Shown here: piece by piece, positions 299-21,587 of the stretch
Position numbering within the stretch: the stretch's first letter is position 1
Layout of the letters: each line of letters begins with the position of its first letter
Virus record (IMG/VR): IMGVR_UViG_3300044984_000431
Location: 1 to 21,597 of that record
DNA: 21,597 nucleotides
Reading direction: 5' to 3' (one strand)
Source of the DNA: a virus
Notes under the pieces: model-generated
What the model was told of the DNA's origin: nothing
What the model saw: the letters and a program-made list of their open reading frames with translations, nothing else
Databases searched by the model: none
Made by a program: the position numbers and the translations under genes

Positions 299-538
299 TT
301 AGATAACACCACGATTGCGATGCTCACGCAACATGATTTGCATCAAATCTTCAGCCGTAAGTTCAAAGCCAAGTTCTCCGGCAATCTTTATGACTGCTTT
401 CCAATGCTTTGGCATGATGCGACCAGTGACCGCCCACTGCGAAACCGCACCTTGTGTTAATCCAATTTTCTTAGCAACAGCCGTTTGGCTTCCGAGATGC
501 TGGATAAGTTCGCGAACAGATTTAATTTCAATTTTCAT
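299..538 (-). CDS. Cro/YdaS-like helix-turn-helix DNA-binding protein
   Basis: A 79-aa protein probably acting as a phage transcriptional regulator. Residues about 9-40 form a helix-turn-helix: RELIQHLGSQTAVAKKIGL is followed by TQGAVSQWAVTG, the classic AVAxxxGxxxxAVSxW pattern of Cro and YdaS-type proteins. The rest (IMPKHWKAVIKIAGELGFEL) resembles the usual helix that follows such a domain. Its ATG overlaps the stop of the upstream winged-helix gene (ATGA), so the two are translationally coupled and share a promoter near 912-940. No protease or dimerisation domain of a CI-type repressor is present, so a Cro-like or antitoxin-like role is more likely. The target DNA is not shown; the palindrome at 919-940 is a natural candidate. 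Confidence 0.75.
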   Translation of the reverse strand: MKIEIKSVRELIQHLGSQTAVAKKIGLTQGAVSQWAVTGRIMPKHWKAVIKIAGELGFELTAEDLMQIMLREHRNRGVI

Positions 539-2076: not shown

Positions 2077-2651
2077 AAAGACAACACACAATGGCTGACA
2101 GGGGAGATGATCTTTATGAGACTCATCCTGTCGCAATTAACGCATTTCTCAAGCATCACGCAGATCAAATACCTCAAACTGTTTGGGAGTGCTGTGCTGG
2201 CAGAGGTGCGATCACTAGGTGCATAAACGCAACTGGTCGCAATGTTATATCGACAGATTTGAACGCCCATGAAGGTGCAGATAAAGGAATTGAAACGGGC
2301 AGAGATTTCTTGATGGAGTATATGCCTCTTGCAGATATGATCGTTACCAATCCACCATATAAACTCGCTAATAAGTTTATCAGGCATTCGCTATCTCTTG
2401 GATGCGTGTTTGCTGGGTTAATGCCTTTGTCATATCTGTCTGGAGCAAATCGTCACGACATCTTGCGGCATTGCAAAATGGTGTATGCTTTTATTGAAAG
2501 GCTCCCAATGATGCACCGAGAAGGATGGGACGGCCCTCGTAACGAATCGTCTGCAATCCCGTTTGCTTGGTTTGTTTTTGACGTTGATCATCGTAGCGAT
2601 ATTATACCTGTTAAAAGGATTTCTTATCGTGACTCGTCGATCAATCAGTAA
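2073..2651 (+). CDS. Phage DNA N6-adenine methyltransferase-like protein (NPPY)
   Basis: A 192-aa class I SAM-dependent methyltransferase, probably acting on adenine in DNA. DLYETHP (14-19) precedes motif I, VWECCAGRGAI (37-47), which binds SAM. An acidic STDLN (60-64) follows, and the catalytic motif IV VTNPPY ends at residue 96. The downstream RLPMMHREGWDGPRNESSAIPFAWFVFD block is the usual C-terminus of this family in phages. There is no separate target-recognition domain and no restriction endonuclease next to it, so it looks like an orphan phage enzyme used to protect viral DNA or mark it. An ATGA overlap couples it to the upstream gene; a second in-frame ATG at 2091 is possible. The recognition sequence cannot be read from the protein. 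Confidence 0.85.
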   Translation: MKRQHTMADRGDDLYETHPVAINAFLKHHADQIPQTVWECCAGRGAITRCINATGRNVISTDLNAHEGADKGIETGRDFLMEYMPLADMIVTNPPYKLANKFIRHSLSLGCVFAGLMPLSYLSGANRHDILRHCKMVYAFIERLPMMHREGWDGPRNESSAIPFAWFVFDVDHRSDIIPVKRISYRDSSINQ

Positions 2652-3006
2652 AAAAGAACGGATGGAGTTGTTCAATGACCGCAAAGGCATCTGCCATATC
2701 TGTGGCGATAAAATCTACGCTGGGCAAGATTGGGAAGTGGAACACATTATTCCAATGGCCCTCGGTGGAGATGACCGAGGTAAGAACCTCGATTTGGCTC
2801 ACATCGAATGCCATCGCGGCAAAACCAAAACAGATGTTGGACGCATCGCTAAAGCTAAACGGCAAGCCGCTCGTCACGTTGGAAAGAAGGTATCGCGAAA
2901 CCCTTTGCCTTGTGGTAAAGGATCGAAAATGAAGAAGAAGCTATCAGGAGAAGTTGTCCTTCGTGGCGAAAAGACAAGAACACCTTCGACAGATGGCTTG
3001 GGCTGA
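2629..3006 (+). CDS. HNH endonuclease
   Basis: A 125-aa HNH nuclease; the fold makes metal-dependent nicks or breaks in DNA. The core is GICHICGDKI (CxxC at residues 22 and 25), WEVEHIIPMALGG (EH at 38-39, catalytic His), KNLDLAH (Asn 53, His 58) and ECHRGKTKTD. This is the full zinc-supported beta-beta-alpha HNH signature. The C-terminus is basic (KAKRQAARHVGKKVSRN), suiting DNA binding. GTG 2629 is chosen because AAGGAT lies upstream and the longer in-frame reading from 2563 would add a segment that only shadows the methyltransferase. It overlaps the methyltransferase by 23 nt. It is not next to a terminase, so packaging nicking is less likely than recombination/repair or a homing role. Confidence 0.85.
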   Translation: MTRRSISKKERMELFNDRKGICHICGDKIYAGQDWEVEHIIPMALGGDDRGKNLDLAHIECHRGKTKTDVGRIAKAKRQAARHVGKKVSRNPLPCGKGSKMKKKLSGEVVLRGEKTRTPSTDGLG

Positions 3007-3322
3007 ATATCTTAAAATTCGGTCAGCGACTCGCGTTGCTGAAAATCTTGGAATTCCACCGACAACAGTTAGGTCTTGGATAAGAGATTATAAACAAATG
3101 AATAATGAACTGCCGCCGACACTACGATATCAAAATGAAATGACATGGCGTGAACAAACAGAAAGGATTAGAAAAGAATCAACAAGCGACATTCATGTAA
3201 ACCATTATGGAAAGCCACCAGCAGGGCGATCTGCCCTAGATCAAAAACAGAAAGAACAATCAAATGACGAACGCCAAACAAATCCTTTCAACATCAATCG
3301 ATACTATCGGAAGCCGTGCTGA
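2963..3322 (+). CDS. Helix-turn-helix protein
   Basis: A ~119-aa protein with one clear motif: YLKIRSATRVAENLGIPPTTVRSWIRDYK, a transposase/sigma-like HTH in which ATRVAENLG is helix 2 and TTVRSWI the recognition helix. The remaining two thirds are polar, rich in Glu, Arg, Asn and Gln, with no domain I recognise. The start is uncertain: TTG 2954 is too close to AGGAG (2946-2950), GTG 2963 is slightly far, and ATG 2993 lacks an SD. It overlaps the HNH gene at its 5' end and the next gene by 59 nt at its 3' end, so its disordered C-terminus may partly reflect dual coding. It may be a small regulator or a DNA-binding partner for the adjacent nuclease. Confidence 0.6.
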   Translation: MAKRQEHLRQMAWAEYLKIRSATRVAENLGIPPTTVRSWIRDYKQMNNELPPTLRYQNEMTWREQTERIRKESTSDIHVNHYGKPPAGRSALDQKQKEQSNDERQTNPFNINRYYRKPC

Positions 3323-3638
3323 AGAATATGGCGATGCCTCGCAATCCTTCTCCAGAGCCTCCACAATCGCCTCGACAATGTTAGATAAGACAATCACAGC
3401 CTATGATGTCAGTATCGTCCTGATGGCTGTTAAAATGGCTAGGATTGCACAGAACAAGACTCACATGGATTCTTATGTCGATCTTGCGGCATATACAGCA
3501 TTTGCGGCACAGTTCTCAAATGCAAAGGCAACAGAGGCTGTCGAGGCTCATCGATTGCAGATTACATCGTTGAAATTAACAGACGAAATGACAAGCCAGA
3601 TTGATGAGCAAGTTGCTAATCTGGTTAAAAGAAAGTGA
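3264..3638 (+). CDS. DUF6378-like protein
   Basis: A 124-aa soluble, helical protein. It shows the pattern of a phage family I associate with DUF6378: RAEEYGDASQSFSRASTIA near the N-terminus, VSIVLMAVKMARIAQNK, then HMDSYVDLAAYTAFA. The conserved 'YG', 'VxxxMxxxKxAR', 'N' and 'DSYVDLAAY' elements resemble all-alpha NTP-pyrophosphohydrolase-like proteins, but the acidic metal-binding set of that superfamily is only partly visible. A nucleotide-pool enzyme is therefore a guess. The C-terminal ~35 residues are a helix absent from the core pattern. The ATG lies within the upstream HTH gene, and its stop overlaps a GTG-started mini-gene (GTGA). Confidence 0.7.
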   Translation: MTNAKQILSTSIDTIGSRAEEYGDASQSFSRASTIASTMLDKTITAYDVSIVLMAVKMARIAQNKTHMDSYVDLAAYTAFAAQFSNAKATEAVEAHRLQITSLKLTDEMTSQIDEQVANLVKRK

Positions 3639-3725: not shown

Positions 3726-3992
3726 ATGACAGACATCGTAGACCGACTGCGAACTGTTGACATCAGTTGGAGTCAAGAAGGCGAGTGGTGTGCCGAGGCA
3801 GCCGACGAGATCATCAAGCTACGGGAAGATAAAAAATTTGGATTTGAATTGATGGATACATTTATAAAAGAAATCAATCGGCTGAAGCAAGTGCTACGCT
3901 TGATTGCCAATATGGAAAGCGACCCTGAGTTTGGTGTTCTACCTATAGCGACAGTACAGAAAATAGCACAAGACGCATTGGAGAAAGAGTGA
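3726..3992 (+). CDS. Array cassette protein 1 (MTDIVDRLR family)
   Basis: First full-length member of the small-gene array, 88 aa. It begins MTDIVDRLRTVDISW, followed by CAEAADEIIKLRED and EINRLKQVLRLIANM, and ends QKIAQDALEKE. The N-terminal 'DIVxRLR', the 'ADEIxxLR' heptad and the 'AL(K)EKE' tail recur in later members. Helical content is high and coiled-coil assembly is plausible. Proteins of the form 'DIVERLR...ADEIERLR' are, to my memory, scattered widely in phages with no known function. The SD for it is ATGAGG in the previous mini-gene. Its stop TGA overlaps the ATG of the next mini-gene. Confidence 0.8.
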   Translation: MTDIVDRLRTVDISWSQEGEWCAEAADEIIKLREDKKFGFELMDTFIKEINRLKQVLRLIANMESDPEFGVLPIATVQKIAQDALEKE

Positions 3993-4072
3993 TGACAGTA
4001 AGTGAATTCATAGCAGTAATTTTTTTAGGTATTTTTCCGTTGCTGCTTGCCTTTGTAATAGGGAAAGAGTGA
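3992..4072 (+). CDS. 26-aa single-TM peptide in the array
   Basis: A mini-gene between two array junctions: its ATG overlaps the TGA of cassette 1 and its TGA overlaps the ATG of the next gene. The peptide starts MTVSEFIAVIFLGIFPLLLA and ends FVIGKE, giving an acidic N-terminus, about 18 hydrophobic residues and the array-type tail GKE, where the DNA carries the SD for the next gene. It is below the usual length cut-off but fits exactly and has its own GGAG SD. A membrane peptide of unknown function. Confidence 0.6.
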   Translation: MTVSEFIAVIFLGIFPLLLAFVIGKE

Positions 4073-4392
4073 TGGATATCGTTGAACCCAGCACAGATTG
4101 GATCAAGTTTGATGCAGAAACTGATGAAGTACCGTTTCTGCATATGCACGATTTGATCGAGGTTAACTACAAGAACGGTTATCAGTCTCCGCCAGTGCCA
4201 GCTTGGTCAGTTGACTTCGACGGTTCACGCTATCCCGTGACTGCTTACCGTGTGGTCAAAAAGGCGGACGTCAACGAGATCGAGCGGTTGCGGGGAGCGT
4301 TAGCGTTAGTCGTGACTTATCACGAGGGGTTTACTTTGACGATTGAAGAAGTTGTTGCAGCCGCCCGCGCTGCACTGAAGGAGGAAGAGTGA
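4072..4392 (+). CDS. Array cassette protein 2 (MDIVEP..., with EIERLR box)
   Basis: A 106-aa array member. The first residues MDIVEPSTDW resemble the MDIVERL start of its paralogues. The middle (EVNYKNGYQSPPVPAWSVDFDGSRYPVTAYRVVKK) is unique to this gene and looks beta-rich. The last third returns to the family pattern with VNEIERLRGALALVV and EEVVAAARAALKEEE. The DNA of the EIERLR box (4274-4295) is nearly identical to the boxes at about 4913 and 5489. This arrangement, conserved ends with a foreign centre, suggests a new module inserted between common borders. ATG 4072 is used (SD spacing about 8); GTG 4069 is in frame. Confidence 0.75.
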   Translation: MDIVEPSTDWIKFDAETDEVPFLHMHDLIEVNYKNGYQSPPVPAWSVDFDGSRYPVTAYRVVKKADVNEIERLRGALALVVTYHEGFTLTIEEVVAAARAALKEEE

Positions 4393-4817
4393 TGATTGAA
4401 CACAGAAACGAAAAAGGCGAACTGCATCGCGTAGATGGACCTGCTATTGAGGACGAAGATGGCTATCAAGTGTGGTATTTAAACGGCAAACGACACCGCG
4501 TAGATGGTCCCGCGATTGAGTACGGAAATGGCTATCGTGAGTGGTGGGTAGACGGCAAACGACATCGCACCGATGGTCCTGCGTTTGATCAGGCAAACGG
4601 CTATCAAGAGTGGTGGGTAGAAGGTGAGTTTATCAAGTGCGCACAATCGGGAGAGAGGAAGCAAAAGCGTGAAATGACGAACCTCAAAGAAGCCGCCGCT
4701 AAGTACAAAGAGTTGCGAGAAGCCACAACTGACCTGCTTAAAGCGATTGATGGGCTATTCCCCACAGACGGCCCTGTCAAGGCTAGGGTTCGTGCTGCGT
4801 TGAAGGAGAGCGAGTGA
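4392..4817 (+). CDS. HRxDGPA-repeat protein with array-type C-terminus
   Basis: A 141-aa protein built from two parts. Residues about 9-79 contain three copies of HR(V/T)DGPA and three of GYxxWW/Y(x)xG, in a 23-residue repeat. I know this MORN-like 'WYxNGxxHRxDGPA' pattern from assorted phage and large-virus proteins of unknown role, expected to form a beta-hairpin stack. Residues about 95-141 (MTNLKEAAAKYKELREA... ARVRAALKESE) are helical and end like the other cassettes. An internal ATG at 4674 preceded by a purine-rich tract could produce the 47-aa C-terminal part alone, so this may be a fusion of a repeat gene with a cassette gene. Confidence 0.75.
   Translation: MIEHRNEKGELHRVDGPAIEDEDGYQVWYLNGKRHRVDGPAIEYGNGYREWWVDGKRHRTDGPAFDQANGYQEWWVEGEFIKCAQSGERKQKREMTNLKEAAAKYKELREATTDLLKAIDGLFPTDGPVKARVRAALKESE
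4416..4628 (+). repeat. 69-bp in-frame tandem repeat within the HRxDGPA protein gene
   Basis: Full units lie at 4461-4529 and 4530-4598, preceded by a partial unit (4416-4460) and followed by another (4599-4628). Each begins GGCTAT and includes GACGGCAAACGACA-like and GATGGTCC(T/C)GC blocks. The strong DNA similarity points to recent duplication, so copy number may vary among relatives. Confidence 0.8.
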
Positions 4818-5050
4818 TGGCTGAAGATATCATAATAACACTGAAGCGGAGCAACGACTTGCTGATGACGTTTGGCAACGATTATTCTGATGTGTTTTTA
4901 CCCGCGATTGATGAGATCGAGCGGTTGCGAACGGTAGCTGTTAAACGTGGATTGTGGAAAGAAGCACCGTGTTGTGTCTGCGGATATAACGGCCCTAATT
5001 ATTTCCAACCATCAGTCCATAAATGTGCCGCGATAGAGGAGAATGAGTGA
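4817..5050 (+). CDS. Array cassette protein with EIERLR box and Cys-rich tail
   Basis: A 77-aa array member. The N-terminal half is helical (MAEDIIITLKRSNDLLMTF) and leads to AIDEIERLRTVAVKRG, the family box. The C-terminal half is different: APCCVCGYNGPNYFQPSVHKC. The CxxC and HxC pairs 15-18 residues apart could bind one zinc ion, as in small zinc ribbons or knuckles. I recognise no named domain. It starts at the TGATGG junction and ends IEENE, a variant of the KEKE tail whose DNA still provides GAGGAG as the SD for the next gene. Confidence 0.7.
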   Translation: MAEDIIITLKRSNDLLMTFGNDYSDVFLPAIDEIERLRTVAVKRGLWKEAPCCVCGYNGPNYFQPSVHKCAAIEENE

Positions 5051-5283
5051 TGGATATCATTGAACGGTTAGACGCAGCGATAAAAACGGAAGACTTTTGG
5101 ATCGGTGATCAAAGAGAAGATAATATCTTGAAAGATTCCAAAAAGATTATTGAGCAGTTGCGGGAAGTATTAGGAATGTGGTTGCGCTATAGCAAATCTG
5201 ATTATGATGACCACGCACAGATGATTATTGATTGGTCTCAAGCAGAGGCCGCCACAAAGTCCGCACTGAAGGAGAAAGAGTGA
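5050..5283 (+). CDS. Array cassette protein (MDIIERLD...)
   Basis: A 77-aa helical protein with the array layout: MDIIERLDAAIKTEDFW at the start, a central box degenerate at the protein level (KIIEQLREVLGMWLRY instead of EIERLR), an acidic DYDDHAQ stretch and the tail QAEAATKSALKEKE. Its 5' end repeats the DNA GATATCATTGAACGGTTA seen in slightly different form at 4072 and 5618. It is translationally coupled on both sides by TGATG overlaps. There is no catalytic motif, and the role is unknown; a homo- or hetero-oligomeric coiled coil with sister proteins is possible. Confidence 0.75.
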   Translation: MDIIERLDAAIKTEDFWIGDQREDNILKDSKKIIEQLREVLGMWLRYSKSDYDDHAQMIIDWSQAEAATKSALKEKE

Positions 5284-5618
5284 TGGATTACGACATGGAT
5301 ATACACCACAACCCAGACGCTCAAGCGTGGGCTAAGTTTTTTATTGAGACAACAGATGTTATGGATCGCGCTGCGTTCCGTGATGAAGGATACATGATTG
5401 CGTGGTTTTCTAATGCGATGATGGCTATGCACGATCATTTATATAAGACCGAGATTGTGCGGTTGCGGAATGATGCCGCCAACGAGATCGAGCGGTTGCG
5501 GACAAATCAGAGCATCATCATTGCATCGTTCCGCATTAACATGATGCGGCTTTGCCCAGAATACTCGCATGAGGAATTTGATAAAGATATCGCTGCTATG
5601 TTGAAGGAGAAAGAGTGA
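5283..5618 (+). CDS. Array cassette protein with two consecutive xxRLRN/EIERLR boxes
   Basis: A 111-aa array member. The front half (MDYDMDIHHNPDAQAWAKFF ... GYMIAWFSNAMMAMHDHLY) is unrelated to its neighbours. It is followed by a doubled box, KTEIVRLRNDAANEIERLRTN, in which the DNA GAGATTGTGCGGTTGCGG is echoed 36 nt later by GAGATCGAGCGGTTGCGG. The tail EEFDKDIAAMLKEKE ends in the exact junction repeat. The doubled box looks like a local duplication and supports exchange at this sequence. The start is the ATG at 5283; an in-frame upstream extension to 5232 only shadows the previous gene's end. Confidence 0.7.
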   Translation: MDYDMDIHHNPDAQAWAKFFIETTDVMDRAAFRDEGYMIAWFSNAMMAMHDHLYKTEIVRLRNDAANEIERLRTNQSIIIASFRINMMRLCPEYSHEEFDKDIAAMLKEKE

Positions 5619-5887
5619 TGGATATCGTTGAACGGCTGAGAAGCCATTGGGGCGGCGAGAGAATGGCTGACGTATCAATAGATGTCGCTGATGCCGCCGA
5701 CGAGATTGAGCGACTGAGGATTAAGAAGAAAGTAGCCGTTGAGTGGATTAAGGAACTAATGGATTTCCTTGAGTTTATTTACAACCACCCGGAATTTTCG
5801 GATAGTTTGAAGGCATATGAATGGATCATGTTTCAGATTGAAATGATCATGGCTAAATATAACGAACCAGTAGGTGAGGAGCGGTGA
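5618..5887 (+). CDS. Array cassette protein (MDIVERLR...ADEIERLR)
   Basis: An 89-aa protein, the most canonical member of the array: MDIVERLRSHWGGERM, then VADAADEIERLRIKKKVAVEWI, then two helices (LMDFLEFIYNHPEF and WIMFQIEMIMAKYN). It matches cassette 1 best in order of motifs. Unlike most, it ends NEPVGEER rather than KEKE, although its DNA (GGTGAGGAGCGGTGATGG) still gives an SD and the TGATG overlap. The hydrophobic C-terminal helix could pack against a partner or membrane surface. Function unknown. Confidence 0.75.
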   Translation: MDIVERLRSHWGGERMADVSIDVADAADEIERLRIKKKVAVEWIKELMDFLEFIYNHPEFSDSLKAYEWIMFQIEMIMAKYNEPVGEER

Positions 5888-6183
5888 TGGACGCCATTGA
5901 GACGGAAAAAATTGTTACAACGGCTGAGATGTTTGAAATCGTCGGCAATGAATTAAAAGAAAAAAATGCCGAGATAGAGCGGTTGCGGTTAGCTAATTCA
6001 GACCTACAGATGCACTACGATTATGCCAGAACTGAATGCGATAAGCTGGAGGCTGAGGTAAAAAGACTGCGTGGATCGTTGTCTTTTATCTCAATGTTGA
6101 CACCGCTTAGTGGTCAATCATGGGAGAGCCACGCAAGGTTTATTAACGCATATGCTCTTGATGAATTAAAGGAGAAAGAGTGA
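5887..6183 (+). CDS. Array cassette protein, strongly coiled-coil
   Basis: A 98-aa member with the longest coiled coil of the set. MDAIETEKIVTTAEMFEIVG is followed by an almost continuous heptad region, roughly residues 20-65 (ELKEKNAEIERLRLANSDLQ, then YARTECDKLEAEVKRLRG). After that come a short hydrophobic FISMLTPLSG and a tail ALDELKEKE that encodes the exact junction repeat. Note the internal ELKEKNAEIERLR: tail and box elements lie side by side, as if two cassette ends had joined. Likely a dimeric or trimeric coiled-coil protein; function unknown. Confidence 0.75.
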   Translation: MDAIETEKIVTTAEMFEIVGNELKEKNAEIERLRLANSDLQMHYDYARTECDKLEAEVKRLRGSLSFISMLTPLSGQSWESHARFINAYALDELKEKE

Positions 6184-6287
6184 TGGACAACATTGAGATA
6201 GCTGCTGCCCTACTTATGATACTGGCTGCGTTGGTAATTGAAGCACTTATGTCGCACATTGACGACCTTGAGTCGGAGAAAGAGTGA
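6183..6287 (+). CDS. 34-aa single-TM peptide in the array
   Basis: A mini-gene with ATG at 6183 overlapping the previous TGA and preceded by AAGGAG 8 nt upstream. The peptide starts MDNIEIAAALLMILAALVIE and ends with the acidic SHIDDLESEKE, giving an N-terminal acidic patch, one hydrophobic helix and an acidic C-terminus that encodes the next SD. It keeps the array's MD(N)I start. The SD, precise overlaps and membrane-helix composition argue that it is translated. Confidence 0.65.
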   Translation: MDNIEIAAALLMILAALVIEALMSHIDDLESEKE

Positions 6288-6379
6288 TGATGGATTTGTT
6301 GTTTTATATTGGGACAGCAGTCATTTGCATCTCGCCTCTACTACTTGGGATTATGATAACTCGTAAGGAGAAAGAGTGA
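6287..6379 (+). CDS. 30-aa single-TM peptide in the array
   Basis: A mini-gene starting ATGATGGAT at 6287 (or 6290) just after the junction SD GGAGAAAGA. It encodes MMDLLFYIGTAVICISPLLL followed by GIMITRKEKE. Twenty-odd hydrophobic residues are followed by a basic/acidic TRKEKE tail, which also encodes the next exact junction repeat (6365-6382). It is probably a small inner-membrane protein of unknown function. Confidence 0.65.
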   Translation: MMDLLFYIGTAVICISPLLLGIMITRKEKE

Positions 6380-6459
6380 TGGATGAAATTTGGTTTTGGA
6401 TGGCAAATTTTATTTTGGCTTGTTGGTTTGGTTTACGGTTTGGCTTCTGGGAAAAATAA
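6379..6459 (+). CDS. 26-aa aromatic-rich TM peptide in the array
   Basis: Starts at the TGATGG junction (ATG 6379, AAGGAG 8 nt upstream) and ends at TAA 6459. MDEIWFWMANFILACWFGLR is followed by FGFWEK, with an acidic start and an unusually high Trp/Phe content. A second frame offset by one base, ATG 6383 reading MKFGFGWQILFWLVGLVYG, is also open and hydrophobic and continues in frame into the next gene at 6482. I prefer 6379 because it keeps the array's start signal and spacing, but either or both frames could be used. Confidence 0.45.
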   Translation: MDEIWFWMANFILACWFGLRFGFWEK

Positions 6460-6481
6460 AAAAATTAAAGGAGAAAGAGTG

Positions 6482-6619
6482 ATGGCAACAAAGAAGAAAG
6501 GCATCCTCACATCTGCACCGCAGTGGTGGGATCATCTGAAAGACTGGAAGAAAGTATTCTGGAGCGCAGAGCGCAAGGCCGCCAAAAGAGAAATTAAAAA
6601 GGAACTTCGTAATGGGTGA
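6482..6619 (+). CDS. Small basic hypothetical protein (PQWWDHLK...)
   Basis: A 45-aa protein beginning MATKKKGILTSAPQWWDHLK and continuing DWKKVFWSAERKAAKREIKK. It is strongly basic, with Lys/Arg spread through a helical C-terminus, and has aromatic residues at WW, W and FW. Short 'WW.HL...K..FW..ERKA.K' proteins occur in other marine phages, from memory only; function unknown. It is the last gene started by the exact junction repeat (6468-6485), and its end overlaps the next ATG by 8 nt. The ATG at 6482 is favoured over the longer in-frame reading from 6383 because the junction SD precedes it. Confidence 0.65.
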   Translation: MATKKKGILTSAPQWWDHLKDWKKVFWSAERKAAKREIKKELRNG

Positions 6620-6905
6620 CGCAATGATCGAAATTGAAGAACTGGATTTGTTTAACAATCTGGTCGAAACAGACGTTATTATCGAGAATGTCAAAGCGTA
6701 TATCGTGTTTGACCGAGAAGAAGAATCTTTGTGGTATCTGTCGGCTGTCCAATGGGACGGCAATACTCTCGAATGGGATCAAGCACGGGAATTAAAATCA
6801 TCTGAAATGAGCAAAATGATCTGGGAAAGTGTCCTGCTGGCTATCAACGACAAAGCCTCCGAGATAGCAGAGGATCACTTCCTAGATGAGGTGCATGATT
6901 ACTGA
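6612..6905 (+). CDS. Acidic hypothetical protein, last gene of the rightward operon
   Basis: A 97-aa strongly acidic protein that I do not recognise. It begins MGDAMIEIEELDLFNNLVET, passes through a beta-like VKAYIVFDREEESLWYLSAVQWDGNTLEW and ends in an acidic helix with EIAEDHFLDEVHDY. AAGGA lies 8 nt before the ATG. It does not share the EIERLR box or KEKE tail, so it marks the end of the array. Small acidic early phage proteins sometimes mimic DNA or bind host enzymes, but nothing here shows that. Its 3' end overlaps the endolysin gene on the other strand by 7 bp. Confidence 0.7.
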   Translation: MGDAMIEIEELDLFNNLVETDVIIENVKAYIVFDREEESLWYLSAVQWDGNTLEWDQARELKSSEMSKMIWESVLLAINDKASEIAEDHFLDEVHDY

Positions 6906-10246: not shown

Positions 10247-10756
10247 TTACCTCGCTAAATATGAAATTGCTTTGAGCATCAAATTGGGACTATCTTTTAA
10301 CAGACCCAATGCACGATTACAGGCATCACAAAGTAATCCTCTAACTCTGCCAGTTGAATGGCAATGGTCAATGTTTAATCTCTTTTTGTGATTATCAGGT
10401 GGAGATGAATTACATATTGCACATACACCATTTTGCCTATCTAGCATCTTGTTGTATTCTGCAAAATCTAACCCGTAATTTCTTTTCATGTGCAATTCAA
10501 GGTCATATTCTTTTGTTTGGCTACGACCATGTTTGTATGATGGAGAATGTTTACCTTTACGAAATTGCAAACAACCGCATGATTGAGTTCTGCCAGTTGC
10601 CATTTGGCTAAACCCAACTATCTTTTCAGTTCCACAATCGCACATAACTCGATATTTAAAACTGCCGTTTCCTGTGCGTGATTCAGTCTTTTCCAATAGC
10701 GTAAGCATCGCTATCTTTGTGCCTGATTGATCTTGATGAAAACGTCCTTGTGGCAT
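10247..10756 (-). CDS. Endonuclease VII-like HNH nuclease, probable free-standing homing endonuclease
   Basis: A 169-aa nuclease. The C-terminal half matches recombination endonuclease VII: YGLDFAEYNKMLDRQNGVCA with CAIC, NIDHCHSTGRVRGLLCDACN with the DHCH and CDxC motifs, and RALGLLKDSPNLMLKAISYL. The N-terminal half has a DNA-binding Cys module, YRVMCDCGTEKIVGFSQMAT followed by RTQSCGCLQ, which I know from HNH homing endonucleases. The two parts together, and its placement between two appendage genes, indicate a mobile free-standing endonuclease rather than a structural gene. ATG 10756 (SD GAGGA, about 5 nt) is preferred over TTG 10768, which overlaps the fibre gene stop. Confidence 0.85.
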   Translation of the reverse strand: MPQGRFHQDQSGTKIAMLTLLEKTESRTGNGSFKYRVMCDCGTEKIVGFSQMATGRTQSCGCLQFRKGKHSPSYKHGRSQTKEYDLELHMKRNYGLDFAEYNKMLDRQNGVCAICNSSPPDNHKKRLNIDHCHSTGRVRGLLCDACNRALGLLKDSPNLMLKAISYLAR

Positions 10757-10764
10757 AGTATTCC

Positions 10765-13098
10765 TCAACGACCGAGAGCAAATTTAAAAGGCACTTCGGC
10801 AAATGCCATGTAGATGTATGCACCGCCGCTGGCATTACTATCCACTCCAGTGCTTCTTAATTTGAAACCATTAGATAGAAAGTCGCTTGGGTGGCTAGTA
10901 TCTTCGGCATTTGTTAGATTTGGATAAAGAGCGGCTGCTGGTTGATTAAATGTTGAACGTGATGAATCATAGATAATCCAATTACCCGTTGAATTCGTTC
11001 GCTTATACATAACAAACCGTGGCCTAAATCCGGTAAACACAAACGGCCCATCAGCCGAGCCGTTGCCTGTGTAGGAGCCGAATGCCGAGTATCCTGCTAC
11101 TGCGGAAAAGCAGTAGGCGACGTGTTGACCGCCACCTGTAGTTTGGTTCGTATCCATTGAAGAACCAGTACCAACCGAGAATACTGTGGAAGATGGCGTA
11201 GCCGTAAATCCTTGGGTATCCGCAGAAATAGCATTGGTTGAATTTAAAATAAGTTGTTGGTTTGCCCCTACCGACACATGGTAAACGGCCCATGAAGTAG
11301 TAGCTTGTCTATTTTTAATAATAATCATGCTGGGTGCAACACCCAATCCATGACCAATCGTTGCCGCTGCACCCGTACCCGTATAAGTAACAATGCTGAA
11401 ACCAGCCGTAGGATTGGCCCTTACTTGTGCTGAGATTGAGCCACTAGTGTTGGTTACAGTTGAGCCGCCAGCGTTCCATTGCCAAGCAACTAAAGTAACC
11501 GCATTACCGTTCCATTGTGAATCTGTGCCAACAGAAAATCCGTTGCTATTAAAAGATGTCATTCTGTTGCCAGCAGTTTGTTCTGCCGAAGTAGAATCAG
11601 AAGTAACATATTTGTCGTATCCACGAACAGAATCAACTAATTGACTATTAGTTGCCGCACTACGAGCCTTTGCCCATATCCAGTCAGGCTGAAACGTCGT
11701 GCCAATAGTGTTGTTTGTTCCATTAGAAATAGTTTGGCTTGTGCCATTACCCGTATAGGTCGTAGCAGCCATATAACTAGCACCATTCTTGATTGTCGCA
11801 TCAGGAAGGTTCTGTGTATTGAGTGCCTTGAACCCAGATGGTGGCGTGTAGGAGAAGGGGCGTTGACCAAAGTTTGCATTAACCGTGACTGCTCCAGCAG
11901 ATGCAAAATCTGGGGTGTAAGAACCAGCAACAATCGTCTTTGTGCCTTGTGATGTGTTGTTCTTGTAGAAGGTGATCTGAAGGTTATCCAAATCAAGAGC
12001 CACGCCAATTACATCGCTAGTGGTAAATGTTGCTCCATAGGCGACACCAGATGTCGCTGTGTAAAATTGACCATTTGAACCGTAATAATGGTAACCCTGC
12101 GAAATTGAACTTGCTGATGGAACGGCTGTGCCCAAAATAATTCCCGGCGCGGCAGATGCCCCGCTTTGAGTTTGCTCCCAATACCACTTGCCACTTGACT
12201 GAGCAAATGATGCTGGTTGTTCACCTCCAGCAACAGCCCAAGTTACATTCAAGTTCCCACTTGCGACTGTTGATGTTGATGGTTTTTTAAGCGGATTCAG
12301 CACCGCATAATTCCCTCGACCAGTGCTGCCATCAGGAAATGGTGTTGGGGTATCAATCATGGAATCGTACGTCACACCAGCAGTTACGCTGATATTGTTT
12401 GGCGTCCAGTTATTGCCGTTGCCCGAATAATCTTTGCCAATGGTTGCGGCTGTCGATGCAGAGTTATCGCTGAAGTTCAGATAAAAACCGTTTGTCCCGT
12501 ATGTGCCTGTGTATTTCTTTGGCTTCCATACGCCAGTGATCGCGTCATACTCTCCAAAGCTAGATGGAGTTAACGCTTGTCCATCGACAAAGTTGATTTC
12601 TGTAAGGTAGCCGTCATAGTAATTACTAGAAAAACCACCTAGCGAACCTATGTAGCCAACTGTGCCAGATGCGTTCCAATAAGAAGTTGTCAAGTTATTT
12701 GTGGTAGAATTTGTTGTGACTACGCCGTTAACATAAACTTGCAGTGCAGAACCAGAACCATTTGCTCTAACAACAATGTGATACCAAGCGGAAGGGTCAC
12801 GAAAAACTGCATTTGTGGTAATAAAAGTTGTAGATGCGTCTGAAATTTGAAATGTATTAGTTGTAGCAAACAAAAACTCAAGTCGATTAGCTGTACCCGC
12901 AGAAAACACATCAACTTGCGTTCCAAGAGTACCCCGTTTAGTCCAAAAAGATAATGTCCATGTGTTTTGACTTGTTGGTGTGCCAAACGTCCTATTAAAA
13001 TAAGCTGTCGCAGATGATCTAAACCGCACGGAACGGCTGATCTGGTATCCCGATACACTACCTAGCATTAGATTGTTGATTTCGACAGGAACTGCCAT
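10765..13098 (-). CDS. Large tail appendage/adhesin with LamG-like, SPRY-like and DUF7483-like domains
   Basis: A 777-aa beta-rich protein, probably a receptor- or glycan-binding tail appendage. Residues about 20-190 look like a LamG/concanavalin jelly roll (TWTLSFWTKRGTLG, WYHIVVRANGSGSALQVYVN, GYIGSLGGFSSNYYDGYLTE, INFVDGQALTPSSFGEY). Residues about 300-425 look SPRY-like (SGKWYWEQTQSG, VIGVALDLDNLQITFYKNNT). About 560 to the end match a phage C-terminal pattern I associate with DUF7483 (GHGLGVAPSMIIIKNRQ, HVAYCFSAVAGYSAFGSYTG, GFRPRFVMYKRTNSTGNWII, AYIYMAFAEVPFKFALGR). No chaperone-cleavage or peptidase site is seen. It lies downstream of the tail tip gene and upstream of a fibre-assembly-like gene. 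Confidence 0.8.
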   Translation of the reverse strand: MAVPVEINNLMLGSVSGYQISRSVRFRSSATAYFNRTFGTPTSQNTWTLSFWTKRGTLGTQVDVFSAGTANRLEFLFATTNTFQISDASTTFITTNAVFRDPSAWYHIVVRANGSGSALQVYVNGVVTTNSTTNNLTTSYWNASGTVGYIGSLGGFSSNYYDGYLTEINFVDGQALTPSSFGEYDAITGVWKPKKYTGTYGTNGFYLNFSDNSASTAATIGKDYSGNGNNWTPNNISVTAGVTYDSMIDTPTPFPDGSTGRGNYAVLNPLKKPSTSTVASGNLNVTWAVAGGEQPASFAQSSGKWYWEQTQSGASAAPGIILGTAVPSASSISQGYHYYGSNGQFYTATSGVAYGATFTTSDVIGVALDLDNLQITFYKNNTSQGTKTIVAGSYTPDFASAGAVTVNANFGQRPFSYTPPSGFKALNTQNLPDATIKNGASYMAATTYTGNGTSQTISNGTNNTIGTTFQPDWIWAKARSAATNSQLVDSVRGYDKYVTSDSTSAEQTAGNRMTSFNSNGFSVGTDSQWNGNAVTLVAWQWNAGGSTVTNTSGSISAQVRANPTAGFSIVTYTGTGAAATIGHGLGVAPSMIIIKNRQATTSWAVYHVSVGANQQLILNSTNAISADTQGFTATPSSTVFSVGTGSSMDTNQTTGGGQHVAYCFSAVAGYSAFGSYTGNGSADGPFVFTGFRPRFVMYKRTNSTGNWIIYDSSRSTFNQPAAALYPNLTNAEDTSHPSDFLSNGFKLRSTGVDSNASGGAYIYMAFAEVPFKFALGR

Positions 13099-13101
13099 GG
13101 A

Positions 13102-13740
13102 TTATCCGATGTTGGTTATAAGTTGCGAGGCAATCGAGGTTGATGTTCTTACCGTGTAAACCAAAACATCAATCGCATTAGCAGTCGTTGTTAATGTTGG
13201 AGCAGTTGAACTTGGGAAATCCCAAAAAGATGAATACGCTAATGTTCTTGAACCAGTCGCATCCTGAGTGATAAAAATTACACCAGATTGCCCGGCAGTT
13301 AAATTCGTCGGATTGCCGAGAGTTCTGCTGCCGCCAAGAGTGACTGAAAAATTATTACCAACCGACATATCAACCGCAATCGTCGTAGCGTCTGTCAACG
13401 TATCAATCGCCATGTAAGCATTGGCTGTTGCAGATATCGCTCCAGAGAATGTGTTAGTTGCAGAGAATGTATTTGTTCCAGCAAGGGATGCAGAACTTTC
13501 AACACTCGTAACAACATTAGTCGATTGATTCAGTGTTAGGATGCTGATCCAAGCGGAGTTTGCTTCATTCCTGATTTTAAGAATGTTATTAGCGTCATCG
13601 TACCAAAGCTGATTAGCAAAAGTTGTTGATGGTGCAGTCGATCCAGAAGAGGTACTAGCCAAGGCTTGCAATGCAGAATTGATATCTGATCTTGTTGCTG
13701 GGAAGCCTTGATTGGCAATTGTCATATCATTTTGCGACAT
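13102..13740 (-). CDS. Tail-fibre-like structural protein
   Basis: A 212-aa protein beginning MSQNDMTIANQGFPATRSDI and followed by NSALQALASTSSGSTAPSTT, with ANQLWYDDANNILKIRNEAN (about 43-62). This opening, in which a short helix precedes a 'xxPSTxxAxQxWxDxxxxxLKIRNxA' beta hairpin, is a hallmark of fibre or collar-type proteins in marine phages that bind the tail by their N-terminus. The rest is Thr/Ser/Ala-rich beta sequence ending ITNIG, with a repeated TNTFSATNTFSGA stretch. It overlaps the stop of the tail tip gene (TGATG), showing tight coupling. It is likely a short fibre or connector between tail tip and the large appendage. Confidence 0.75.
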   Translation of the reverse strand: MSQNDMTIANQGFPATRSDINSALQALASTSSGSTAPSTTFANQLWYDDANNILKIRNEANSAWISILTLNQSTNVVTSVESSASLAGTNTFSATNTFSGAISATANAYMAIDTLTDATTIAVDMSVGNNFSVTLGGSRTLGNPTNLTAGQSGVIFITQDATGSRTLAYSSFWDFPSSTAPTLTTTANAIDVLVYTVRTSTSIASQLITNIG

Positions 13741-16646
13741 CAGATGACCTTTCCGTATCCTTTGGCTACATAATCAAAAGTTCGACTTATAGCAACATTC
13801 GCAGAATTTCTGAAAACGATAGTGAATCCAGTTTCTGATTTTGCAGTTATAACATAATAATCGCCCGACGCCAGATTTTGTGCTGCAACACCAATCCCAG
13901 ATAATCCTTTGAATGCCTGAGAGAATGTCACAACATATGAGCCAGCCCCTGAAACTAAATCTAAATCTGAAATAACACGATCAGGCATATCTACAGAAAC
14001 TGCAAGATCAGTAATGCTCGGAGTTGAAGCACCATACAAAGATGTCAAATGTGCTCGATATTTGAACGCTCTTGCCGAATAATCTCCAACAACAAACGAT
14101 CTAAAATCAGACCAAACAGGAGATGCCGACGGATCATCATCCGTTGTAGCAATTTCTAAATTGACACTGGTATCATCAAAAGCAGTTGCAGTTCCGTCAA
14201 AAAGACCTTCTCGATCATCAAAATCACCTGCCCCAGAATCGAACAGATCAACATAATCAATTCGGATATTGTTGAAATTAGCCGTCACTCTGCTGGTGTA
14301 TTTATCTCCGAGATCAACATAGGTTGAAAAATCATAATAGCCAGATGTTGCGATGGTATTTAGACCACTATCAAAAAGACCAGCGGCATCATCAAAATTA
14401 CCTGAAACACTGTCAAAATTAGTCGATGTGTCTAACTGGATAAATGAAGTTCCATCTTCAGTAATTTTTACAACATTTGTTTTTGATCCTGAAAATGCAG
14501 GATTCTCTGTCAATGTTATAATTGCATTCAAATCTTCAACGTCAGTGATGTTTGTTTGCAAAATAATTTCAGCAGGATTCGCCGAAACAAAATTCAACTT
14601 ATCAACCGCTTTTACAAAGTACGTTCCAGTTTTAGATGGAACAATAACCGAATTAGCTGGTCGTGAAACCTTATCAACAAGATCAACAGCATTTTGATAT
14701 GTCGCCCCAGTTGTCGCTTGTGAATATCGAACTTTGTAATGAGACAAATCAAGATCAGTAACTGGCGTCCAAGTCAGGATAGATGAGCCACCGATTGAAT
14801 TAATCGAAAGATCAGTAACATCGCTTGGAACAGCAGTTTTGCCAACAATCTGATAGATAGCTTCAGAATAAGCAGATACCACCCCAAGAGATGAGATTGC
14901 TCTTGATCTCACATTGTATGAAGTTCCATCTTCCACCTTCAGGACTTCAAATTTAGTTCCTGAAGATTTCCCTGCACTCGTATATATCGAGTCAGTTGTT
15001 TTCTTAAAATCAACCTCATGTTCAGTTATGAATTGGTTATTGCTCGTCAAATTTATCAACATGACAGTAATCACGTCTTGATTGATTGCTCTCAATTCAT
15101 CGCTGATTGTCATTACAGGTGCATCAATCAACGAGTAATTAGGCAAAGAGGTGTTATCTAATTCGATCGCTGTTTCTTCAGCACTCCAATCATAGACAGA
15201 TGAACTTGTTTCCTGAAGCATCAGATCAACACCGTAGATCGGAGCGTCATTACTGCCTTCAACTGCAAATTGATAATTCATAATCTCGAATGGTTTTGAG
15301 ACGAACCCATATCGAGTATTAGTCAACATAATGACATCGCCAACTTCAATTCTGAATGCAGTCAATTTGCATTTCAGATTTAAGCTGATCTGCTGCCGTT
15401 GACGATACAAAGCTATCTTTGCAATCCGCTGTGCCATAGGTGATGAGATCGTAAATGGTAGAACCAAATCCAATGCACTTTCAACATTATTATCATCAGC
15501 CTTGAACACAGATGACACTATCGGTGGAAAATCCGTTGCTTGCCAGTTCTGATCTGGAGAAACGAAAACACCTTTCACATAATTAAAATTATCCCGCCTT
15601 GAGTGCTTAGTCGTGACATCAATCGGGCCACGCATATCATCATCAGTGATTGTAATCGTCGGACTAGAATATGCCGCAACTTTCATATTCCAGATGCCAG
15701 ACGAATAGAAAATTGTTCCTGCACACGATGTAAGCAAGTTTTCAAGAATGTTTTTTGGAGATGCGTCAGTTAAAACAACACCATGCGTCTCGTAACGGTT
15801 CTCAGTCCCACCAGCCGCTAGTGTAACATCTTCATCGCAGATGTTCGCAGCAGCCGAGAAGCTAGTCATATTCACTTCAGACGCAGATGCACCAAGGCCA
15901 TATGTAGAGTTCTGTAAATAATCTAACAAACACAATGCAGTGTTTGACGAAAATGCAGTTGTTGTTGTTCTAGGATCATAAACTTTTTTACCCTTGATCA
16001 CCGTCTTAATTACTGGACGACCATTCGGAAAAGCATTTTGATCGAACTTCAACCGAACGTAGAAATAAGCGATGCCTGATAATGTATGGTTCACAGTCCA
16101 AAGACCATTTGACTCGGCAATCAATGTTGCATCAGCCGCTTGGTTCGTTGCTCCGAGATGAGTTATGATTCTGGCTTTATTAGCGAACTTACTTGGAGCC
16201 GTGACATTGCCACTTCCATCAAGTGTCAGCAATTCATCATCAAAATAAAATTCATCGAAAGATTCAATCTCATGCCCAGCAACAGGCACAATCATATGCA
16301 GATACTGATTTGAATTTGTAGTTTCAGCATAAATAATCGGCCCAGTAGTTTGTACCCGACCATAAACAATGTTTCGAACTGCTAAATTATCTGGGAAGTT
16401 TTCTTCTCTACCTTGGATGCCATCCATACTCGACATTTTAGGTTTCGGCATTAGTGCGTTAGATGCAAGAGCCAATCCTGCTGTGATAATTAATCGTCCA
16501 GCAAACGATCCAAGAAATGCAACCGTTGATGCACCTGCTCCAAAATAACTTGCCGCAGAAATAATTAATGAAACAGGATCAGCAGCCGCTGGTTGAGCAA
16601 ATACAAGTGTTGTTAGAAATGTTGATGCAAGAAGGAATTTCCTCAT
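13740..16646 (-). CDS. Tail tip/central hub protein (J-like) with FnIII domain and signal-peptide-like N-terminus
   Basis: A 968-aa tail tip protein that nucleates the tail and contacts the host. After residue 80, NLAVRNIVYGRVQTTGPIIY begins the J-like hub core, seen again in ARIITHLG, NGRPVIKTVIKGKKVYDPRT and ALCLLDYLQNSTYGLGASAS. About 600-700 is a fibronectin type III domain (VPSDVTDLSINSIGGSSILT ... YKVRYSQA). About 742-760 and 803-826 hold a repeated FDSxxGxFDDxxGLFD motif, and the C-terminus AFKGLSGIGVAAQNLASGDY...RTFDYVAKGYG is a pattern I know from marine phages. Oddly, residues 1-22 (MRKFLLASTFLTTLVFAQPA with AAADP) form a near-perfect Sec signal peptide, followed by more hydrophobic segments to residue 65. 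The start codon follows the DUF6950-like gene directly. Confidence 0.85.
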   Translation of the reverse strand: MRKFLLASTFLTTLVFAQPAAADPVSLIISAASYFGAGASTVAFLGSFAGRLIITAGLALASNALMPKPKMSSMDGIQGREENFPDNLAVRNIVYGRVQTTGPIIYAETTNSNQYLHMIVPVAGHEIESFDEFYFDDELLTLDGSGNVTAPSKFANKARIITHLGATNQAADATLIAESNGLWTVNHTLSGIAYFYVRLKFDQNAFPNGRPVIKTVIKGKKVYDPRTTTTAFSSNTALCLLDYLQNSTYGLGASASEVNMTSFSAAANICDEDVTLAAGGTENRYETHGVVLTDASPKNILENLLTSCAGTIFYSSGIWNMKVAAYSSPTITITDDDMRGPIDVTTKHSRRDNFNYVKGVFVSPDQNWQATDFPPIVSSVFKADDNNVESALDLVLPFTISSPMAQRIAKIALYRQRQQISLNLKCKLTAFRIEVGDVIMLTNTRYGFVSKPFEIMNYQFAVEGSNDAPIYGVDLMLQETSSSVYDWSAEETAIELDNTSLPNYSLIDAPVMTISDELRAINQDVITVMLINLTSNNQFITEHEVDFKKTTDSIYTSAGKSSGTKFEVLKVEDGTSYNVRSRAISSLGVVSAYSEAIYQIVGKTAVPSDVTDLSINSIGGSSILTWTPVTDLDLSHYKVRYSQATTGATYQNAVDLVDKVSRPANSVIVPSKTGTYFVKAVDKLNFVSANPAEIILQTNITDVEDLNAIITLTENPAFSGSKTNVVKITEDGTSFIQLDTSTNFDSVSGNFDDAAGLFDSGLNTIATSGYYDFSTYVDLGDKYTSRVTANFNNIRIDYVDLFDSGAGDFDDREGLFDGTATAFDDTSVNLEIATTDDDPSASPVWSDFRSFVVGDYSARAFKYRAHLTSLYGASTPSITDLAVSVDMPDRVISDLDLVSGAGSYVVTFSQAFKGLSGIGVAAQNLASGDYYVITAKSETGFTIVFRNSANVAISRTFDYVAKGYGKVI

Positions 16647-20792: not shown

Positions 20793-21182
20793 TTATGCTA
20801 ATGTTGATTCTGTAAGCGTGCCTGTACCTTGGAACGAGAATGTGGCTTCGACCATTCCGTCAAATGCAGCAGAGCGTTCGATACTAGTGACTAAAACCGT
20901 TCCAGTGTAATATTTATCCGTTGATGCGTTGCCTTCTGGATAAAGATTCAAAGTGACACTTGCACCAGCCGTCAATGCCGATTGTGCTGATTCTGTTTCG
21001 TCCCAGAAACAAACAACCGAACCCGTCCAGCTTTTCATACCAGTTTTGAATGTGCGGTATGAATCGCCCATGATCGAATCCTCAATCGTGTCTCCCGTTT
21101 CCGTGAGTGTGTACGACCGAGTTTCTGCCATTGTAAATGTGCCGATCTTAACGACACCTTCAGAACCTGAATGATTTGCCAT
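20793..21182 (-). CDS. Tail tube protein, second tandem copy
   Basis: A 129-aa tail tube-type protein that is a paralogue of the 130-aa gene next to it. Both start MANHxGSEGV, share an unbroken 22-residue block beginning TLTETGDTIEDSIMGD, share GMKSWTGSVV and WDET, and share ERSAAFDGMVEAT followed by FSFQGTG (here) or YSFQGTG. The regular alternation of strands fits the beta-barrel of siphophage tail tubes, which stack as hexamers. The copies differ most in the central part (residues about 64-95) and in a Cys at SVVC here. It lies directly before the chaperone gene, the expected place for the major tail protein. Confidence 0.85.
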   Translation of the reverse strand: MANHSGSEGVVKIGTFTMAETRSYTLTETGDTIEDSIMGDSYRTFKTGMKSWTGSVVCFWDETESAQSALTAGASVTLNLYPEGNASTDKYYTGTVLVTSIERSAAFDGMVEATFSFQGTGTLTESTLA

Positions 21183-21194
21183 GTTGAATTATCC

Positions 21195-21587
21195 TTATGC
21201 CGCAGTGCCAGTCGTCAAAGCACCAGTGCCTTGGAACGAATATGTCGCCTCAACCATGCCATCGAACGCGGCTGACCGTTCAACGCTCGTTACAAGAGCC
21301 GAGCCATAGTAGTATATGTCTCCAGCAGTTGCACCTTCAGCATAGAACTTGATGGTGATGCTTGAGCCAATGGTAAAAGTTCCCTGACCAGTTGTATCAG
21401 TCTCATCCCAATATGCGACGACAGAACCAGTCCAACTTTTCATGCCAGCCTTAAAAGTGCGATAAGAATCGCCCATGATGCTGTCTTCGATGGTGTCGCC
21501 TGTCTCTGTAAGCGTCCATGAACGTACTTCTGCAACCGCATTAGTTCCGCTGTGAATGACGCCTTCGCTGCCTGTATGGTTAGCCAT
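21195..21587 (-). CDS. Tail tube protein, first tandem copy
   Basis: A 130-aa tail tube-type protein, first of two tandem paralogues, read from ATG 21587, only 10 bases from the window edge, so its ribosome binding site is barely visible. It starts MANHTGSEGVIHSGTNAVAE and carries the shared block (TLTETGDTIEDSIMGD), SWTGSVVAYWDET and VERSAAFDGMVEATYSFQGT. Its middle GTFTIGSSITIKFYAEGATA differs from its partner. One copy may form the tube and the other a ring at the tube's end or a minor tube subunit. Which is the major protein cannot be told from sequence. Confidence 0.85.
   Translation of the reverse strand: MANHTGSEGVIHSGTNAVAEVRSWTLTETGDTIEDSIMGDSYRTFKAGMKSWTGSVVAYWDETDTTGQGTFTIGSSITIKFYAEGATAGDIYYYGSALVTSVERSAAFDGMVEATYSFQGTGALTTGTAA

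Follow-up and report, generated by a model that had tools for sequence, protein, structure and literature searches.

The window analysed here, IMGVR_UViG_3300044984_000431, is the partial genome of an uncultivated virus (21,597 nt; all coordinates are window positions unless a contig is named) and carries thirteen small genes between positions 3726 and 6619. These genes are probably best understood as a variable array of small accessory phage genes, held at a fixed position and remodelled by recombination between two families of short repeats. The first repeat, J, fuses the Shine-Dalgarno (SD) sequence, the last codons and the stop codon of one gene and the start codon of the next, and is present at 12 borders of the 13 genes. 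The second, M, is a patch of 18-23 nt in the middle of many array genes that codes for (D)EIERLR (example GAGATCGAGCGGTTGCGG), and units having it consist of an N-half, M and a C-half.

Variation of the array between related phages

The relatives were picked via the two flanking genes, without reference to J or M, to avoid selection by motif, giving a flank-selected set of 18 distinct arrays between the same two genes; L-numbers (L017, L100 and others) denote related uncultivated contigs compared with the window. The relatives keep a DUF6378 gene upstream and the same gene downstream, and the array between them is 514-3048 bp long and has 2-13 genes. Relatives with 88-96% identity to the window over 0.8-1.2 kb of downstream flank had matches at 85% identity or more to just 6-27% of the array in the window, and thus the gene content is not fixed and collinear. 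The preliminary description of this DNA had named a fixed, collinear gene set as evidence against its proposal of exchangeable units, and the arrays, with their differing lengths and units, do not have it. The gene with the N-module TVDISWSQE stands at array position 1-3 in 17 of the 18 arrays.

Local alignments between arrays end at the gene borders and also mid-gene, at the sequence coding for (D)EIERLR. Breakpoints were defined as the 598 collapsed interior ends of high-scoring segment pairs in the flank-selected set, with a proximity threshold of 20 nt and 2000 circular shifts as the null. Within 20 nt of J, counted at the gene start, lay 247 of the 598 (102 expected), and within 20 nt of M lay 172 (69 expected); none of the 2000 shifts reached either value. 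The syntenic relatives support the proposal that units are gained, lost and swapped, with the breakpoints located at the junction, and this was the support named beforehand as the one to be looked for. The exchange of whole units at the border holds, but the unit of exchange had been misjudged, as half-genes are swapped too, at the EIERLR joint.

Splitting the units at M gave 67 types of N-half and 78 of C-half, combined in 122 ways, with one connected network of 71 types (nodes) and 84 edges, in which the N type VLNFMGPW is paired with 12 C types. The array proteins, earlier said to have unrelated middles, are better described as two independent halves meeting at the EIERLR joint. Sixteen chimeric genes were found as triples, where the N-half is 93-100% identical in nucleotides to one gene and the C-half likewise to another, the counterpart halves belonging to different clusters; the chimera of L017, for example, has a C-half 100% identical to the window gene at 4817-5050 and an N-half 95% identical to L021. 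Moreover, 233 pairs of contigs (each contig extending 3 kb or more beyond the array in both directions) have a module of at least 90 nt in common at 93% identity or more between flanks without DNA similarity.

Single events show the same behaviour. L100 has two adjacent genes, N1-M-C1 (4128-4349 of that contig) and N2-M-C2 (4349-4732), where L208 and L105 have a single gene, N1-M-C2, with the switch inside M; the 3.2 kb before these genes are 90% identical in L208 and L100. The distance from M to M in L100 is 275 nt, which is no multiple of 3, and the fusion is nevertheless in frame, since translation passes through all copies of M in the same frame. At the borders, the 2118 nt leading to J are 99.2% identical in L179 and L183; a gene of about 180 nt follows in L179 and is missing in L183, the ends at the missing gene having GAGTGATGGATAT in common; as the identity downstream falls to 91%, this was an exchange with a third source and not a simple deletion. 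L053 has one extra whole gene compared with L157, with flanks 99.6% and 96.9% identical.

The joint at the gene borders

The fused element at twelve borders, with an 18-mer (AAGGAGAAAGAGTGATGG) exact at five of them (5269, 5604, 6169, 6365 and 6468), was confirmed as first described. Including the exact ones, 11 copies of the 18-mer lie within 3 mismatches, all on the + strand (shuffled sequences: mean 0.03, maximum 1), and a twelfth, weaker copy, GAGGAGCGGTGATGG, is located at the border before 5887. J is thus a direct repeat of one direction and not an inverted repeat. The copies are the following:

3978-3995, + strand: J joint, 3 mismatches (18-mer scan)
4058-4075, + strand: J joint, 3 mismatches (18-mer scan)
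4378-4395, + strand: J joint, 2 mismatches (18-mer scan)
4803-4820, + strand: J joint, 2 mismatches (18-mer scan)
5036-5053, + strand: J joint, 2 mismatches (18-mer scan)
5269-5286, + strand: J joint, exact (18-mer scan)
5604-5621, + strand: J joint, exact (18-mer scan)
5873-5890, + strand: J joint, weak copy GAGGAGCGGTGATGG (from the sequence; breakpoints at 5876, 5884 and 5897)
6169-6186, + strand: J joint, exact (18-mer scan)
6273-6290, + strand: J joint, 3 mismatches (18-mer scan)
6365-6382, + strand: J joint, exact (18-mer scan)
6468-6485, + strand: J joint, exact (18-mer scan)

The TGA of J serves as the stop codon of the upstream gene and overlaps the next ATG (TGATG) at 11 of the 12 borders; at the last border (start 6482) the upstream reading frame ends earlier, at 6459. 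J is more than an SD alone. The six bases between the SD and TGATG hold 7.2 bits in the arrays; for TGATG overlaps that lie over 3 kb away from J in contigs of the same kind, the value is 1.1 bits. AAAGAG is found in these six bases within 1 mismatch in 72% of the array cases compared to 0% of the distant overlaps, in an array set that includes contigs found via the 18-mer, with the flank-chosen arrays giving the same consensus. These values speak against selection for a strong SD as the whole explanation of the junction. In addition, exact identity through the start codon reaches 19-29 nt between genes of one array, compared to 0-7 nt among core genes, and J often extends into the MDI[V/I]ER codons of the next gene.

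The 18-mer occurs in at least 120 IMG/VR stretches, where its reversed form has 0 matches, and 84 of 121 oriented contigs hold at least 2 copies of J. Cellular genomes (257 Gb) contain 28 copies, each single; none of these 28 has a second J or the EIERLR motif tested, and no host prophage was therefore found.

The joint inside the genes

The preliminary description had placed MDI[V/I]ER, EIERLR and ALKEKE together at the protein ends, which does not apply to EIERLR, as it sits mid-gene as the second joint. In the AlphaFold (AF2) models of gene 1 and gene 9, M lies inside a single unbroken helix (residues 15-61 and 2-71, respectively); with pTM values of 0.42 and 0.47, only the secondary structure of these models was used. 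A function in the helix could demand the EIERLR residues, not particular codons, and the codons are what is preserved: glutamate is GAG in 93% at M and in 42% at other places of these genes, arginine is CGG in 77% at M (26% elsewhere) and leucine is TTG in 77% (32%), and this bias persists with each N-C combination counted once. A DNA joint could demand such codons, and shared descent of the patch is part of this reading. The copies of M and of similar sequences are the following, with the breakpoints near each:

3807-3824, + strand: M joint, EIIKLR (breakpoints 3813, 3828)
3870-3887, + strand: M-like, EINRLK (breakpoint 3895)
4276-4293, + strand: M joint, EIERLR (breakpoint 4285)
4913-4930, + strand: M joint, EIERLR (breakpoint 4927)
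5146-5163, + strand: M-like, IIEQLR (breakpoint 5161; outside the site list of the breakpoint test)
5451-5468, + strand: M-like, EIVRLR (breakpoint 5472)
5484-5501, + strand: M joint, EIERLR (breakpoint 5483)
5702-5719, + strand: M joint, EIERLR (breakpoints 5693, 5727)
5971-5988, + strand: M joint, EIERLR (breakpoints 5967, 5978, 5984, 5987)
6055-6072, + strand: M-like, EVKRLR (breakpoints 6071, 6081)

The last of these, also seen in relatives, is a possible third joint: it reads EV..LRGSL, follows the LANSDLQMHYDYA module and would split C-halves in two.

Both halves evolve under purifying selection, with a pooled dN/dS of 0.21 for each; the value is below 1 in 18 of 20 N clusters and in all 16 C clusters.

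Proposed mechanism and alternative explanations

Recombination between two copies of J would add, remove or replace whole genes, each newcomer receiving the SD and the stop-start overlap, as seen in the sequence, and presumably translational coupling with them. Recombination between copies of M would bring together N-halves and C-halves in any pairing, and the reading frame would be kept with deletions of every length. Annealing between copies of J or M during replication or co-infection would be the simplest account, because of the identity available at J (19-29 nt) and M (22 nt), the encoded ERF protein and the use of short homology by Rad52-like recombinases. We thus infer short-homology annealing by the phage's own ERF protein, the candidate driver of the shuffling, relatives of which were found in 22 of the 121 array contigs; the HNH endonuclease encoded upstream could supply breaks. 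The products may be host-takeover or counter-defence proteins kept diverse by selection, as suggested by their position, size and diversity.

Several observations weigh against remodelling through J and M. About 30% of the breakpoints lie away from both, and a deletion of about 64 nt that separates L186 from L181 breaks the frame and touches neither joint, which indicates that other recombination also acts. The breakpoints of related contigs are only partly independent of one another. Within one array, exact runs between copies of M are mostly short (median 4-7 nt, best 22 nt), below the minimal segment of 23-27 bp described for Red-beta (PMC3945230), so any exchange there would be relaxed and rare. 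Finally, ERF was found in a minority of the contigs, many of which are short fragments.

Random illegitimate recombination followed by selection, where only the exchanges preserving genes and helices survive and breakpoints accordingly show up at gene borders and a domain linker, would need no joint in the DNA: J would be kept as a good translation start, consistent with the SD within it, and M as a need of the helix in which it sits. The breakpoints off J and M and the indel at neither also fit this explanation. We consider it unlikely, and already weakened, as selection on the protein leaves the synonymous-position conservation of M unexplained, the spacer of J between the SD and ATG is conserved far more than at ordinary TGATG borders, and the breakpoints are located within the shared patches.

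Tandem duplication and divergence from one ancestral gene, with differential loss and no swapping, would account for the common MDI[V/I]ER start, EIERLR centre and ALKEKE end. However, halves 93-100% alike in nucleotides stand beside unrelated other halves, the chimeric triples refute it as the whole story, and modules at 93% identity or more are common to contigs otherwise without similarity, making this history very improbable. It is still less probable that an assembler joined similar modules of co-occurring phages: the related loci are all uncultivated contigs, and common modules of 100-600 bp could confuse assembly, but three further assemblies (L043, 13,064 bp; L125, 7279 bp; L155, 5030 bp) contain all or part of the window's array at 99.99-100% identity, and purifying selection acts on the modules as full reading frames. 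A dedicated, integron-like site-specific recombinase acting on J, suggested by the head-to-tail cassettes, their common border and the often conserved head gene, has the least to recommend it, since J is no inverted repeat, M is a second, unrelated joint within coding sequence, and no integrase was present among the window proteins scanned (partial contig).

Remodelling through J and M may also be taken further, to a reading that is less likely than not: the locus could be dedicated to combinatorial protein diversification, J doubling as a translation-coupling signal and M coding for a helix linker, both kept at the nucleotide level so that a phage annealing recombinase can assemble new two-part proteins in frame and rearrange the operon with its expression intact. 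Most of the "dark matter" of phages consists of small early genes without a known family. Many such genes here are products of a parts list of about 70 N-halves and 80 C-halves joined at a predictable seam, and being assembled in this way is why they escape family databases, which also gives a route to their annotation. The array is, moreover, a natural system for the question of whether mosaicism arises by short homology or by illegitimate joining and selection, at base resolution.

Comparison with known systems

The idea of conserved gene borders as recombination sites is not new, and the two-joint combinatorial form appears to be new. In lambdoid phages, boundary sequences with homology lie between the small ninR genes, which follow one another with overlapping stop and start codons and form mosaics from phage to phage; only gene borders are known to be involved there, and combinatorial N- and C-halves are not known. 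The mobile regulatory cassettes of T4, attributed to Arbiol et al. in 2010, reportedly carry an intergenic promoter and a stem-loop at module borders, unlike the array, whose genes overlap by one base at TGATG and leave no intergenic space. The array also differs from an integron in lacking attC inverted-repeat sites (J is a direct repeat) and an integrase among the proteins scanned in this partial contig.

That no system of this kind had been described, as first claimed, was too strong a statement, because there are precedents in cluster K mycobacteriophages (PMC3203893) and T4-like phages (PMC4177764). In the former, short conserved repeats at translation starts (SAS/ESAS) were considered possible recombination targets by their authors (PMC3203893). 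Like J, they are reiterated, contain an SD and lie at the starts of genes of different families; unlike the array consensus AAGGAGAAAGAGTGATGG, SAS is a 13-bp sequence (GGGATAGGAGCCC), distributed genome-wide, with its gene usually more than 50 bp from the neighbour and sometimes with inverted repeats (PMC3203893), whereas J is fused to the stop and start codons, belongs to one compact array and is accompanied by a second joint inside the genes. In T4-like phages, foreign genes have been proposed to enter variable regions by "semilegitimate" recombination at small conserved regulatory signals; these signals, unlike J, are intergenic promoters, translation starts or terminators, and no coding joint inside genes was described (PMC4177764).

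Mosaics arise by the action of Rad52-like phage recombinases, among them Erf of phage D3, on homology that is short or diverged (De Paepe et al. 2014, PMC3945230). The array resembles such mosaicism driven by homologous recombination in that the exchanged blocks are bordered by short DNA homology and the phage has its own Rad52-like recombinase, with a putative role in the exchange; relaxed recombination is a general mechanism, unlike a dedicated array with reiterated joints (PMC3945230). Ea22 of lambda and Stx phages is an early-region accessory protein with a variable N-terminal region, a central coiled coil and a separate C-terminal domain, the blocks of which differ between phages, but it is a single gene for which no reiterated DNA joint was reported (PMC8614690). 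For the array proteins tested, no sequence match to a known family supported membership of an Ea22-like group (Pfam, PHROGs). A second, coding joint making chimeric proteins across an array was not described in the literature searched, which comprised open-licence papers.

Genes of the array and their surroundings

The array and the genes next to it are arranged as follows, all on the + strand:

1133-1759, +: ERF-family single-strand annealing protein, a Rad52-like recombinase (Pfam PF04404, E=1.8e-23, 83.6 bits, cut-off 25)
2563-3006, +: HNH endonuclease, upstream of the array (Pfam PF01844, E=2e-9)
3264-3638, +: upstream flank gene, DUF6378, conserved (Pfam PF19905, E=2.1e-19; position kept in relatives)
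3726-3992, +: array gene 1, N-module TVDISWSQEGEWCAEAADEI and C-module (N-module near the head in 17 of 18 arrays)
3992-4072, +: array gene 2, short hydrophobic protein without M
4072-4392, +: array gene 3, N, M and C
4392-4817, +: array gene 4, three tandem 23-residue repeats and a C-module ending in ALKESE
4817-5050, +: array gene 5, N (RSNDLLMTFGNDYSDVFLPAID), M and a Cys-containing C (7 different C partners for the N-module)
5050-5283, +: array gene 6, N, M-like IIEQLR and C
5283-5618, +: array gene 7, N, two M and C
5618-5887, +: array gene 8, N, M and C
5887-6183, +: array gene 9, N, M and C (LANSDLQMHYDYARTECDKL...) (AF2 model)
6183-6287, +: array gene 10, short hydrophobic protein
6287-6379, +: array gene 11, short hydrophobic protein, recurrent in many arrays
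6379-6459, +: array gene 12, short hydrophobic protein
6482-6619, +: array gene 13 (MATKKKGILTSAPQWWDHLKDW...), the final gene in 6 of the 18 flank-selected arrays
6612-6905, +: downstream flank gene, conserved, function not known (same place in relatives, 59-100% amino acid identity)

The repeats of gene 4 have 23 residues (69 nt) of the pattern HR.DGPA.......GY..WW..GK, and their number is suggested to vary between phages, as nucleotide alignments (blastn) to L017 and L088/L080 fall in several registers. The hydrophobic proteins without M (26-34 residues; 3992-4072, 6183-6287, 6287-6379 and 6379-6459) turn up again in many arrays, each as a complete unit and for the most part towards the array's 3' end.

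No Pfam family was above the cut-off for the array proteins tested, their PHROGs hits all had E>0.01, no module matched the PADLOC models of known anti-phage defence, and a structure search with one unit gave nothing significant. The window and the array had no DNA match among 50,697 phage records, and three array proteins had no protein match at E<=0.1. The nearest named relatives, by the tail protein, are the Roseobacter phages CRP-831 and CRP-811 (46% amino acid identity), whose small-gene regions have no comparable repeated border. This tail protein (13740-16646, - strand) is 46% identical over 98% to those of CRP-831/CRP-811 and 32-36% identical to Pelagibacter phages, and the host is therefore probably an alphaproteobacterium.

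At 299-538 (- strand), divergent from the ERF operon, lies a P22 Cro-like regulator (Pfam, 1.5e-9), which hints that the phage is, or once was, temperate; the window proteins scanned in this incomplete contig included no integrase. A recombination endonuclease VII (10247-10768, - strand; Pfam, 7.9e-25) lies between tail genes, its surrounding DNA being poorly conserved in relatives. Two adjacent, similar tail-tube-like proteins (MANH[ST]GSEGV...; 20793-21182 and 21195-21587, - strand) represent a tandem duplication of a structural gene.

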